This document shows positions 3,831-57,779 of a stretch of DNA of 64,000 nt, piece after piece (positions within the stretch are counted from its first letter, which is position 1; the number at the start of each line of letters is the position of its first letter). Source of the stretch: Roseobacter denitrificans OCh 114 (lineage in GTDB: Bacteria; Pseudomonadota; Alphaproteobacteria; Rhodobacterales; Rhodobacteraceae); the NCBI RefSeq assembly GCF_000014045.1, contig NC_008209.1:1387001-1451000 (forward strand). Reading direction: 5' to 3'. The notes below the pieces were generated by a model, which ran no database searches, was not told where the DNA came from, and worked only from the letters and a program-made list of their open reading frames with translations. The position numbers were made by a program, and so were the translations under genes.

Positions 3831-3907
3831 GGACCGATAGCTCAGCTGGATAGAGTACTTGACTACGAATCAAGGGGTCGGGGGTTCGAATCCTCCTCGG
3901 TCCGCCA
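3831..3907 (+). tRNA. tRNA-Arg (anticodon ACG)
   Basis: A complete 77-nt cloverleaf with encoded CCA. The acceptor stem GGACCGA pairs with TCGGTCC, followed by discriminator G and CCA. The D arm is AGCTCAGCTGGATAGAGT, the anticodon arm is CTTGA-CTACGAA-TCAAG with anticodon ACG, and the T arm contains GGTTCGAATCC. It borders the AT-richer stretch to its right, and tRNA genes are common island integration points. No integrase and no second copy of the tRNA 3' end were seen in the window. Confidence 0.96.
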
Positions 3908-5875: not shown

Positions 5876-5951
5876 GCTACCTCACCGGGGGCGCTTTTTG
5901 GCTGAGATGTACCCTTAGAACCTGAACCAGATAATGCTGGCGGAGGGAGGA
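5876..5951 (+). promoter_or_regulatory. TPP (THI-box) riboswitch aptamer
   Basis: The conserved TPP-aptamer elements occur in the right order: GGGGGC (5887-5892), the pyrimidine-sensor CTGAGA (within 5901-5907), ACCCTT (5911-5916), GAACCTGA (5918-5925), and the pyrophosphate-sensor side TAATGCTGGCGGAGGGA (5932-5948). CCTC at about 5879 and GAGG near 5947 can close P1. The class normally controls thiamine synthesis or transport genes. Here no such gene follows: the first ATG (5960) opens only 20 codons, and the next candidate is the 95-codon frame at 6010. Confidence 0.85.
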
Positions 5952-6009
5952 TACACAACATGAAAATTGGCTTTCCTGTTCACTTTTTCTCCAGGAGAGG
6001 CGCTCGAAA

Positions 6010-18070: not shown

Positions 18071-18378
18071 AGCAAAACTCCTTGTTGCCGAAACAGGATG
18101 TGTTAGCGCTAACCAAAATGCTGCACGTGCACAATAGTCTGCGGGCGCTCTGGTGGAAAATGTTACCCAAACGCCCCGCCAACCCGACCCGGCTGCGACA
18201 CGGGGCCAACCCTGACGGGCGGCGAGGCTGCGAAATTGTCATCTCGCCGCGTGTTTGCTGCTGTTTTCTTGCAATCCAAAGCGTCATGCGGAAAACCTCG
18301 ATCACATAACGCTGCCTGAAATCAAAGATTTCAACGCGTTACGTGATATTCGATGTGTGAGGTATTTGGTCAGACGCT
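18071..18378. other. Intergenic region between mtlK and DUF2934 genes
   Basis: A 308-bp gap. Its right third is the palindromic repeat at 18278-18380. The left part holds the leader of the DUF2934 gene, including the palindrome TGTTAGCGCTAAC (18100-18112). No gene is seen. Confidence 0.6.
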
Positions 18379-18380
18379 TT
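18278..18380. repeat. Palindromic intergenic repeat, copy 1
   Basis: A 103-bp element bounded by perfect 8-bp inverted ends AAAGCGTC (18278-18285) and GACGCTTT (18373-18380). Inside are nested inverted segments: ATCAC/GTGAT, TAACGC/GCGTTA and TGAAATC/GATTTCA around an AAA loop. It abuts the mtlK stop codon. A second, diverged copy occurs at 57670-57773. Confidence 0.85.
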
Positions 18381-19860
18381 ATGCGCGCGCACTCTTGGTA
18401 TATTCGACAAGAGCAGCCTGGCAGCCTTGCGACCAGATCATCTCCAACCACCTGATAAATGCCCGAGAGAACGTGGGGTTTTCCAATAGATCCCCGTATA
18501 GATTGGTCTGCTCAAGCCATGCCACGGGGCGTGTTTTTGCAGCCAAGGCAGCATCTTTGAGCGCATCCCAGATAGGATCGTTTGCGGCGATCTCAGAGCC
18601 ATCTTCGCGCGTACCTGCACACATGCGCGCCCAGAGGGCCTCAACCAGCGCGAGCCCTTCAATGGATCGCCCTGCAGCCAGTTGATCGCGCAGAATGGGC
18701 AGCACGAATCCGGTGTGACGCGCGGAGCCGTCAAAGGCCACGCGACGTGTCGTGTCGACAATCTGCGGGTTCGCGAACCGCTGCTCGATCAGGTCAACGT
18801 ATTCTGCCGGTGTCTTTCCCGGCACCGGCGCGACAGTCGGCGCAATCTCGCTTCTCTGGACCGCGCCGAAGAAGGCGCGAATGTTGGGATCGGCCATACA
18901 GCCTGCAATCGTCTCAATCCCGAGGGTTTCACCAACATTTGCAATGACCTGATGGCCCGCGTTCAGAATGCGGATTTTCATCGTCTCATATGCGTGGACA
19001 TCATCCGTGAATGTCGCGCCGGTTTGTTCCCAATCCGGACGGCCTGCGCAAAATGCGTCTTCGATGACCCATTGACGGAAGGCTTCATGCGTCACTACTG
19101 CGTTGTCCTTGATCCCGAAATCGCGGGCAAGGGCGAGCTCCTTGGGACCGGTGGCAGGCGCAATGCAATCAACCATCGAATTGGGGAAGGCCCCATTTTC
19201 ATCGATCCAACCGGCAAGAGCAGGATCGGACATGCGAGCGAGCGATACCACCGTCTGTCGCAGAATATCGCCATTGCCCTGCAGATTGTCACAGCTTTGG
19301 CAGGTAAAAGGCAGATGCCCGGCAGCACGACGGGCGCGAAGTGCGGCGATGATTGCGCCAAACGCCGTGCGCGGCGTATCGACATGTGCAGCATCGTGAA
19401 GCATGTCTTCGTGGCTGGCATCAAACCCCTTGGTGACCGGGTCGATATAGTACCCGCTTTCGGTAACGGTCATCGAGACGATCCGGATGGAAGGGTCCGC
19501 CATCTGACGGATCAGCGCGCCATTTCCATCCTCGATCGGCAGGTAGTCGATCATCGAACCCACCACCTCAGCCGAGGTTTTCCGAGGGTCCAGTTCGATC
19601 AGCGTGGTAAGGCAGTCCTGCGCCATCAGTTTTTCGCGCATCGCGGTATCGTAGGGGCGCACCCCCGCTCCGATGATGGCCCAGTCATGCGCTTTGCCGT
19701 CCTGCATCAGACGGTGCAGATACCAGGCCTGATGCGCACGATGGAAATTACCGACACCGATGTGAACAATGCCCGGTGTCAGGGCCCCGCGATCATAGTT
19801 TGGACGTTCAACGCGCAGTCGATCCAGCGTCGCATTTGAAAGGGCGATCAGTTCATCCAT
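18379..19860 (-). CDS. mtlK: Mannitol 2-dehydrogenase (long-chain polyol dehydrogenase)
   Basis: A 493-residue NAD-dependent polyol dehydrogenase converting D-mannitol to D-fructose. The Rossmann-like N-terminus has HIGVGNFHRAHQAWY. The family's catalytic K-x(4)-N-x2-H signature is in KIRILNAGHQ (about residue 295). It follows the ABC transporter genes on the same strand after a 182-bp gap. The Rhodobacter sphaeroides polyol operon also carries the sorbitol dehydrogenase smoS at this point; no short-chain dehydrogenase gene is present here. Activity on D-arabinitol and sorbitol is also possible. Confidence 0.9.
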   Translation of the reverse strand: MDELIALSNATLDRLRVERPNYDRGALTPGIVHIGVGNFHRAHQAWYLHRLMQDGKAHDWAIIGAGVRPYDTAMREKLMAQDCLTTLIELDPRKTSAEVVGSMIDYLPIEDGNGALIRQMADPSIRIVSMTVTESGYYIDPVTKGFDASHEDMLHDAAHVDTPRTAFGAIIAALRARRAAGHLPFTCQSCDNLQGNGDILRQTVVSLARMSDPALAGWIDENGAFPNSMVDCIAPATGPKELALARDFGIKDNAVVTHEAFRQWVIEDAFCAGRPDWEQTGATFTDDVHAYETMKIRILNAGHQVIANVGETLGIETIAGCMADPNIRAFFGAVQRSEIAPTVAPVPGKTPAEYVDLIEQRFANPQIVDTTRRVAFDGSARHTGFVLPILRDQLAAGRSIEGLALVEALWARMCAGTREDGSEIAANDPIWDALKDAALAAKTRPVAWLEQTNLYGDLLENPTFSRAFIRWLEMIWSQGCQAALVEYTKSARA

Positions 19861-56603: not shown

Positions 56604-57671
56604 ATGATCGAAGGGCTCCTGGATCAATTTGGTGAGGGTGCCGTGCTTGCGGGCGCGGGGGCGTTGACGGGCGTTCTGTTCGGCGTCATGGCGCAACATT
56701 CCCGGTTCTGCCTGCGCGCGGCCACGGTCGAAGTCTCGACCGCGTCCCTTGGGCCACGTCTGGCAATATGGCTGATCGCGTTTTGTGCGGCGGTCCTCTT
56801 CGTGCAGGGCGCGATTGCTCTGAACGTTCTGGATGTCTCTGCCAGCCGCCAGTTGTCTGCCACCGGCAGCATGTCGGGGGCGATCATCGGCGGGCTGTTG
56901 TTCGGGTCGGGTATGATCCTTGCGCGCGGCTGCGCGAGCCGTCTGCTGGTGCTGTCGGCCACAGGAAACCTGAGAGCGCTGATCACCGGCCTCGTCCTGA
57001 CCCTTGTGGCGCAAGCGTCCTTGCGCGGAGTGCTCTCTCCGCTGCGCGAAAACCTCTCCGGTCTCTGGCTGATTGAGGGGGGGCAGGGGCGCAATATCAT
57101 GTCCTATTTCGGTTTGACGCCCCTGTTGTTGAGCGTGCTGGCAGGCATCGGGCTTTGTCTGGCTGTCGTGCTGGCGCAGCAGCGCGCGGTCAAAGGGACC
57201 CAGGCTTTCGCTGCCGCTGGCGTGGGGGCGGCTGTGGCGCTTGGCTGGATGCTGACCTATGCCGTGGCGCAGGTCTCCTTCGAAATCGTGCCGATTGCTT
57301 CCGTGACCTTTACGGGGCCTTCGGCGGATACGCTGATGGGGCTGGTGAACACTTCGGATTTGCCGCTTGGGTTCGGTGTCGGCTTGGTACCGGGGGTGTT
57401 TATCGGCGCGGGCGCCATGGCCTTGTTGACCCGCGAGGCCGCATTGGAACGCTTTGGCGCAGATACCCCGATGGAACGGTACTTGATCGGCGCTGTTTTC
57501 ATGGGGTTTGGCAGCATGCTGGCGGGCGGTTGTGCGGTGGGGGCGGGCATGTCCGGCGGGGCGATCTTTGCATTGACCGCATGGGTTGCGCTGTTTTGCA
57601 TGTGGCTGGGCGCGATGGTGACCCATGTCATCCTGGCCCGGGTTCACGACCGCAGGGCAACACTGGCTTAA
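56604..57671 (+). CDS. YeeE/YedE-family transporter (SoxT-like, copy 2)
   Basis: A 355-residue YeeE/YedE membrane protein with two sulfur-transport repeats. Cys motifs are AQHSRFCLRAATVE (about residue 31), ARGCASRLLVLSATGNLRAL (about 112) and AGGCAVGAGMSGGAIFALT (about 312). The ATG at 56604 gives the family length; the frame is open further upstream. It is a distant paralogue of the protein at 44256-45314, and the pair bracket the sox genes. One may import thiosulfate and the other another sulfur species or sulfite/sulfur product; the direction is not predictable. Confidence 0.85.
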   Translation: MIEGLLDQFGEGAVLAGAGALTGVLFGVMAQHSRFCLRAATVEVSTASLGPRLAIWLIAFCAAVLFVQGAIALNVLDVSASRQLSATGSMSGAIIGGLLFGSGMILARGCASRLLVLSATGNLRALITGLVLTLVAQASLRGVLSPLRENLSGLWLIEGGQGRNIMSYFGLTPLLLSVLAGIGLCLAVVLAQQRAVKGTQAFAAAGVGAAVALGWMLTYAVAQVSFEIVPIASVTFTGPSADTLMGLVNTSDLPLGFGVGLVPGVFIGAGAMALLTREAALERFGADTPMERYLIGAVFMGFGSMLAGGCAVGAGMSGGAIFALTAWVALFCMWLGAMVTHVILARVHDRRATLA

Positions 57672-57773
57672 AGCGTCATGGGAAACACCTGAATCACCCA
57701 TTGCTGTGTGAAACCAAAGGTTTCAAAGCGGTGGGTGATACGCGGTTATAATGGTAATTTCATCAGACGCTAT
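57670..57773. repeat. Palindromic intergenic repeat, copy 2
   Basis: A 104-bp element starting at the transporter stop codon with AAAGCGTC (57670-57677) and ending GACGCTAT (57766-57773). Nested stems are ATCACCCA/TGGGTGAT and GAAACC/GGTTTC around AAA. It fills the gap between two convergent genes. It aligns with 18278-18380, but with different paired bases in the stems. Confidence 0.85.
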
Positions 57774-57779
57774 AGGCCG

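Follow-up and report, generated by a model that had tools for sequence, protein, structure and literature searches.

A palindromic element of mostly 106 bp, found in a 64,000-nucleotide stretch of the Roseobacter denitrificans OCh 114 chromosome (hereafter the window), is very probably a nonautonomous MITE of the IS630/Tc1-mariner type that survives at gene ends through the stop codons it rebuilds. We propose that an IS630-family transposase recognizes its terminal inverted repeats of about 22 bp. The element enters at the TA inside Y-TA-R, preferably CTAG, and duplicates that TA. In the right phase, Y-TA-R is a stop codon on one or both strands, and the TA together with the A of the element's left end or the G of its right end recreates the stop and keeps the protein intact. 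As their scarcity suggests, insertions inside genes and between divergent genes would be purged and those between tandem genes would be rarer per site, leaving survivors at gene ends, mostly in convergent gene gaps and in 4-nt double-stop overlaps. The palindrome itself would be upheld by transposing lineages rather than by selection at each resident site.

Copies in the window and in other genomes

Copy A lies at 57669..57775 (+) of the window (genome position 1444669) and copy B at 18277..18382 (+); both boundaries include the flanking TA and one further base, copy A being TA, 102 bp, TA and that base, in a long imperfect hairpin. Its TAs at 57669..57670 and 57773..57774 are presumed to be the target duplication, the duplication itself having been seen at other copies. 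The left terminal inverted repeat (57671..57692, +) reads AAGCGTCATGGGAAACACCTGA; the right one (57751..57772, −) is diverged and holds GACGCT at 57766-57771. On the left, a Sulf_transp gene (PF04143; 56460..57671, +) ends in the TAA at 57669-57671, which is the left TA plus the first A of the element. On the right is a convergent gene of the metallo-beta-lactamase superfamily (PF00753; 57780..58730, −), whose stop codon begins 5 bp past copy A. In copy B the left TA reads CA, and the right end with its TA builds the TAA stop (18379..18381, −) of a mannitol dehydrogenase family gene (PF01232, PF08125; 18379..19860, −).

A sequence-only reading of the window had claimed two palindromic copies, at 18278-18380 and 57670-57773, that differ in named stem positions and begin or end exactly at a stop codon. 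Both are located there and fold far better than shuffled sequence (z −5.3 to −6.6 on either strand, with none of 200 shuffles folding as well), the stem differences are present, and the two stops are the TAA codons at 57669-57671 (+ frame) and 18379-18381 (− frame). The claim that the repeat is present twice holds for the window copies; the genome contains at least 150. Rfam returned no match to the element in a gathering search of the window or in a search of copy A at E ≤ 1, and a known Rfam family was rejected on that basis. In the same window, Rfam marks a TPP riboswitch at 5877-5965 (+) and a tRNA gene at 3831-3904 (+). No copy at E ≤ 1 turned up on 64 named contigs surrounding relatives of the Sulf_transp gene, and in congeners the flanks of copy A were too diverged in alignment for a clean empty site, the R. 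litoralis site being filled.

A DNA search of the R. denitrificans genome gave at least 40 places at E ≤ 1.2e-7, the query included, among the 40 of 77 candidates scored. A covariance model (R1), aligned from 30 of these loci (the 57669 copy among them) plus the second window copy, gave at least 150 matches in the genome, the weakest at E 1e-4. All 150 candidates scored, of 2,014, matched, so the true copy number may exceed 150. Two further copies were found in fetched stretches beyond these matches. The working set of 151 copies used below comprises 149 chromosomal R1 matches and these two; the plasmid copy C3:46213 was left out.

Element length, which counts both TAs and one further base, is mostly 106 bp (80-108 among R1 matches), too short for a transposase gene. 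The order is TA, AAGCGTCATGCGAAAAACCTGA, core, a 10-nt asymmetric piece, the inverse of GAGCGTCTGACGAAATACCTGA, and TA, where AAGCGTCATGCGAAAAACCTGA and GAGCGTCTGACGAAATACCTGA are the imperfect terminal inverted repeats (~22 bp) and the core is ATCACGTAACGC-TGCC-TGAAATC-AAA-GATTTCA-AC-GCGTTACGTGAT. Two same-strand copies stand head to tail with overlapping ends (L140, G000:C1:952780-952987), as if one had inserted at the other's end. Four other copies are nearly identical in sequence to the one at 4030310, each with 1 to 3 differing positions.

The distribution is patchy. R. litoralis holds 85 copies (one at 92032-92138 in NC_015741.1) and two other genomes of the genus hold 32 and 32; eight of the 19 genomes of the genus, R. 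denitrificans among the 19, have no match. Under stricter filters, and with 13 candidates scored per genome, which makes copy numbers there lower bounds, a family survey matched 25 of 295 genomes, R. denitrificans included; a class survey, also under stricter filters, matched 2 of 337, R. denitrificans and one other of the same family. In other genera the copies mostly retain the core and a length of 106 nt, and their arms differ yet pair. The core is shared by three copies from congeners and another genus (L036, L038, L289) whose arms differ but pair (for example AGCACAATGCG/CGCATTGTGCT), as though the ends of different insertion sequences carried a single core.

Comparison with 1.2 Mb fetched from R. 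litoralis bears directly on mobility; for 22 of the 151 copies, the sequence on either side could be located there. By script, 5 sites were filled, 5 clean empty and 12 other. R1 confirmed four of the five filled sites in R. litoralis (1444669, which is window 57669; 1692166; 1741526; 2213216) and did not confirm the fifth (3360197, gap 282); some copies are older or were acquired before the two species diverged. Three sites in R. litoralis are exactly empty: 1597076 (CTAG), 2234573 (TTAG in R. litoralis, CTAG by the R. denitrificans flanks) and 3273173 (CTAA). Each has a single TA in R. litoralis and, in R. denitrificans, a TA on both sides of the element. The element has therefore moved since the two species split. 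The other two sites tagged clean have 5 and 8 unmatched bases. Sites 1597076 and 2234573 are classed as convergent double stops in R. denitrificans, and the R. litoralis letters there stop on both strands. Near R. denitrificans position 1529145, R. litoralis has a copy of its own at a gene's TAA stop (L270:9381-9486); the orthologous R. denitrificans gene apparently lacks the element and stops at TGA. Together, the many copies, terminal inverted repeats, TA duplication and patchy distribution uphold the nonautonomous mobile element that the sequence-only reading had named as one alternative.

Target sites and stop codons

A pyrimidine (C or T) precedes the left TA in 95% of the 151 copies, and a purine (G or A) follows the right TA in 93%. 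Both TAs are kept in 52 of the 151, and 48 of these fit Y-TA-R (CTAG 16, TTAG 13, CTAA 13, TTAA 6); as background, these four tetramers account for 7.8% of the NTAN sites sampled.

We then took the longest open frame reaching each end of the 151 copies and counted those of at least 80 codons. Left frames of this length reach 82 copies, 61 of them in one phase (p 4e-14 against one in three), and 56 stop exactly in the first three bases (TAA 36, TGA 15, TAG 5). Right frames reach 89 copies, 69 in one phase (p 2e-17 against one in three), and 51 stop at the TA plus the element's first base (TAG 40, TAA 9, TGA 2). The element explains the common short ending of roughly a hundred open frames in R. 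denitrificans (56 left, 51 right). Another 17 right frames pass the first stop position and end at an in-frame TGA nine bases further in, for example at genome positions 2632373, 93840 and 342112; such frames would carry a small C-terminal tail coded by the element. Further in-phase stops follow at both ends, which read TAA AGC GTC ATG CGA AAA ACC TGA (left) and TAG AGC GTC TGA CGA AAT ACC TGA (right).

At least one exact frame stop falls in a terminal repeat in 88 of the 151 copies, and both convergent frames stop there in 19; in 31, neither side has a frame of 80 codons. The left stop triplet is kept in 56 of 61 copies where a frame uses it versus 58 of 90 otherwise, and the right one in 51 of 69 versus 34 of 82. 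A long frame also ends exactly in the terminal repeat in 10 of the 12 copies in the R. litoralis 1.2 Mb, four of the 12 being common to R. denitrificans. Among 21 copies from relatives, three from R. litoralis (L226, L267, L268) were set aside; the remaining 18 show an exact stop in 10 (one of which, L031, is an R. litoralis copy also counted in the 1.2-Mb set), the backup TGA in 1 and neither in 7. The element starts with A at its left end and with G at its right end, so that TA and this base together spell TAA or TAG. Insertion in a stop codon thus leaves the protein intact, and by rebuilding the stop it lands in, the element fits between adjacent genes and does little harm. The coincidence with stop codons is genuine and holds generally; the insertion target explains it best.

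Genomic context was classified with simple, rough gene calls (932 genes in 1.01 Mb, elements removed by script) in a sample chosen around the copies, which covers just a quarter of the chromosome yet includes nearly all of them. We classified 150 junctions, one overlapping tandem copy being skipped, and all other Y-TA-R sites; a TA was assumed at junctions where one end had it. Ninety-seven junctions lie between convergent genes, 35 between tandem genes, 2 between divergent genes and 16 inside called genes, in a sample whose adjacent gene pairs are 533 tandem, 173 convergent and 109 divergent. Occupancy is that of Y-TA-R sites with the background scaled by 4.08, and the values are estimates since the gene calls are rough. 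It is 51% at convergent double stops (21 junctions, 5 background sites), 19% at convergent sites with one stop (45 and 43) and 4% at those with none (31 and 99). For tandem genes the figures are 3% with one stop (12 and 65) and 1% with none (23 and 371), and they are 0.14% between divergent genes (2 and 176) and 0.06% inside called genes (16 junctions, 15 not Y-TA-R and 1 Y-TA-R, with 424 background sites). A further 106 background Y-TA-R sites lie at edges.

This estimate puts the occupied share of the 4-nt stop-over-stop overlaps at about half. The unoccupied ones can also be gauged from R. litoralis, where 1.2 Mb contains 12 double-stop overlaps among 151 convergent pairs, occupied ones not counted. 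That rate corresponds to ~41 per R. denitrificans-sized chromosome; in R. denitrificans itself, 21 are filled and an estimated ~20 empty. Double stops differ from the other classes at p 1e-19, and within convergent spacers sites with a stop are preferred over those without (Y-TA-R junctions 61 and 18 versus background 48 and 99; odds ratio 7, p 1e-10). Without the assumed TA, an earlier run counted 15 junctions at double stops, 37 and 9 at one-stop sites and 32 in genes, so the assumption shifts ~16 junctions out of genes. With it, 106 of the 150 junctions fit Y-TA-R and 44 do not; these misfits, and the keeping of TA at both ends in only 52 of 151 copies, count against the MITE reading.

Target choice plus purging does not obviously suffice for the difference between double-stop and other convergent Y-TA-R sites (51% versus 4%). 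There is a modest chance that the insertion step is itself directed to colliding gene ends, in addition to any bias in survival, with 4-nt double-stop overlaps as the foremost target. Residents may then act as ~106-nt insulators between genes that once overlapped; under such homing, TA duplication and the terminal A or G would restore both stops of the overlap. We consider it rather unlikely that the MITE has become useful, its hairpin easing transcriptional interference at overlapping convergent stops, either as a spacer or as a roadblock in both directions, so that insertions there are favoured. Such use would fit the 21 of 26 sampled double-stop overlaps that are occupied, versus 18 of 117 other convergent Y-TA-R sites, and the observed-to-expected ratios from the tetramer alone (7.3 versus 2.1). 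The same pattern would arise, however, if insertions elsewhere damaged terminators in the other convergent spacers; moreover, R. litoralis has lost part of the double-stop copy 1479985, and resident copies are free of visible RNA-pairing constraint.

Read as a MITE that persists at rebuilt stops, the element offers a simple sequence route to a safe harbour, since Y-TA-R targeting plus a stop-completing first base is harmless precisely at gene-ending TAs. It also supplies insertions, known in both their earlier and present states, that part formerly overlapping genes, and it lets one test directly whether targeting, purging or use lies behind the preference of bacterial repeats for gene ends.

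Pairing in the hairpin

The preserved pairing between the two window copies had been taken from sequence as a sign of selection on structure, with a role in 3'-end processing, termination or mRNA protection. We examined this in an alignment blind to structure that held 146 of the 151 own copies (five were dropped for length) and 18 others. The own copies show 1,100 one-sided stem cells versus 78 compensatory ones, with 61 two-sided non-pairing; the 18 others show 94, 47 and 5, respectively. One-sided changes in the own copies comprise 294 G-U, 299 A-C and 462 others, and the counts of G-U and A-C are 57 and 65 in copies with a left frame only and 76 and 82 in those with a right frame only. As G-U is about as frequent as A-C, pairing in a transcript is not visibly protected. 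Stem 3 has 39 compensatory cells against a shuffled mean of 19 and maximum of 32, and stems 1, 2 and 4 fall inside the shuffled range. The arms of subfamilies from other genera co-vary. We read this decay pattern as pairing that is kept in transposing lineages and lost freely in resident copies.

An intrinsic terminator was considered and rejected: a run of 5 T within 9 nt after the hairpin occurs in 0 of 151 copies on the + strand and 1 of 151 on the − strand, and a terminator scan at both window copies found no terminator-like site.

It is thus very unlikely that the element is a structured RNA selected at each gene end for processing, termination or protection. Strong hairpins on both strands, the gene-end location, the compensatory differences between subfamilies and the stem 3 excess within the genome would all suit such an RNA. 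The resident copies, however, decay without visible RNA-pairing constraint, and a per-site RNA role is therefore not supported: one-sided changes far outnumber compensatory ones, G-U is unbiased against A-C even where a single frame reaches the copy, T-runs are all but absent from the 151 copies, neither window copy has a terminator-like site, and the element finds no match in Rfam or in 8 of the genus's 19 genomes. The expectation of many copies at gene ends with covarying pairs was borne out for the copies, and for covariation only between subfamilies and in stem 3. Neither selection on structure at single sites nor a termination, processing or protection role finds support in these counts.

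The mobilizing enzyme and known systems

We infer an IS630-family enzyme as the mobilizer because the ends of IS630 remnants in congeners resemble terminal repeats of sister subfamilies, those of R. denitrificans itself matching only at 16-17 of 25 positions. A DDE_3 (PF13358) search of the R. denitrificans genome found no match at E ≤ 1e-3 and two weak ones at 0.0017, and the lack of a strong match in its own genome counts against the MITE reading. Orphan MITEs are known, and a matching autonomous IS630 in the same genome is a feature of some MITEs only. Across the 19 genomes of the genus and 18 chosen genomes, the PF13358 search gave fragments and weak matches. One genome (G002) holds a single 1,172-bp IS630 candidate with ends paired at 19 of 24 positions; around a transposase frame in another (G100), the script found no terminal-repeat pair. 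The IS630 ends are TAAAGCGTTTCGACATTAACCTGAG, from a DDE_3 fragment on an R. litoralis plasmid, and TAAAGCGTTTTGTATTTAATCTGAG, from the 1,172-bp element. IS630 remnant ends agree with the sister-subfamily terminal repeats (L290, L291) at 19-21 of 25 positions, TAAAGCGTTTCGACATTAACCTGAG and TAAAGCGTTTTGTATTTAATCTGAG at 21 and 20; among 36,729 control 25-mers, 20 or more was reached by 1 and 19 or more by 4. Against R. denitrificans' own terminal repeat the two ends score 17 and 16 of 25, which also counts against the MITE reading.

None of the papers listed by our literature searches names the Roseobacter repeat family in its title or abstract. In the text of PMC3141670, 'repeat' occurs a single time, where the methods speak of protein domains, and 'palindrom' is absent; the text of a 2024 review (PMC10969869) lacks 'stop codon' and 'IS630'. 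The published descriptions that we found include no TA-type MITE docking in stops of both strands and filling a sizeable fraction of double-stop overlaps.

To our knowledge, GTAG-tagged REPs have no TA duplication, and an IS200/IS605-type enzyme would not be expected to make one. As described, these REPs measure 20-40 bp, depend on tyrosine transposases and lie between tandem or convergent ORFs, to which their termini often supply a TAG stop (PMC3733652); that repeat ends supply stop codons is accordingly already reported. The Roseobacter element resembles them in gene-end location and stop supply and differs in length and probable enzyme type. A REP proper (GTAG/CGTC, a 20-40 bp palindrome with a one-sided tag) was rejected, the element being mostly 106 bp, other genera included. 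That the element is a REP/BIME-like repeat whose mover is a RAYT-type tyrosine transposase is scarcely credible: the palindrome, the gene-end location and the stop codons that REP ends also give to ORFs (PMC3733652) would suit it, but not ~106 bp versus 20-40 bp, the TA duplication at empty sites or the likeness of terminal repeats, in sister subfamilies, to IS630 ends.

Returning to the IS630-type MITE, the preferred reading, IS630 itself is described as entering TA and duplicating it (PMC2170065); it is an autonomous insertion sequence with a transposase gene, unlike the Roseobacter element. The Correia/NEMIS repeats of Neisseria are described as ~107 bp (and 155 bp), with terminal repeats, target duplication and TA ends (PMC2229807). 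By description they are like the Roseobacter element in length, terminal repeats, target duplication and TA ends; their terminal repeats are 24 bp, and the account mentions no precise stop-codon pattern.

The preference of the Roseobacter element for CTAG has a counterpart in IS630, which reportedly favours the TA in CTAG (Tenzen and Ohtsubo are said to have found this in 1991). Nearest in kind, by description, is RUP, an IS630-Spn1 MITE of 107 bp with 108-110 copies, self-pairing terminal repeats, a TA target and over-representation between convergent genes (PMC2229807, PMC3049150). The two are alike in size, convergent bias and proposed IS630 mobilization, and the RUP host belongs to another phylum than R. 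denitrificans. An IS630 partner in its own genome is proposed for RUP, whereas none was found for the Roseobacter element. The Roseobacter element docks exactly in stop codons, a feature that the RUP accounts leave unmentioned, and it is convergent in 97 of 150 cases versus 23 of 88 for RUP.
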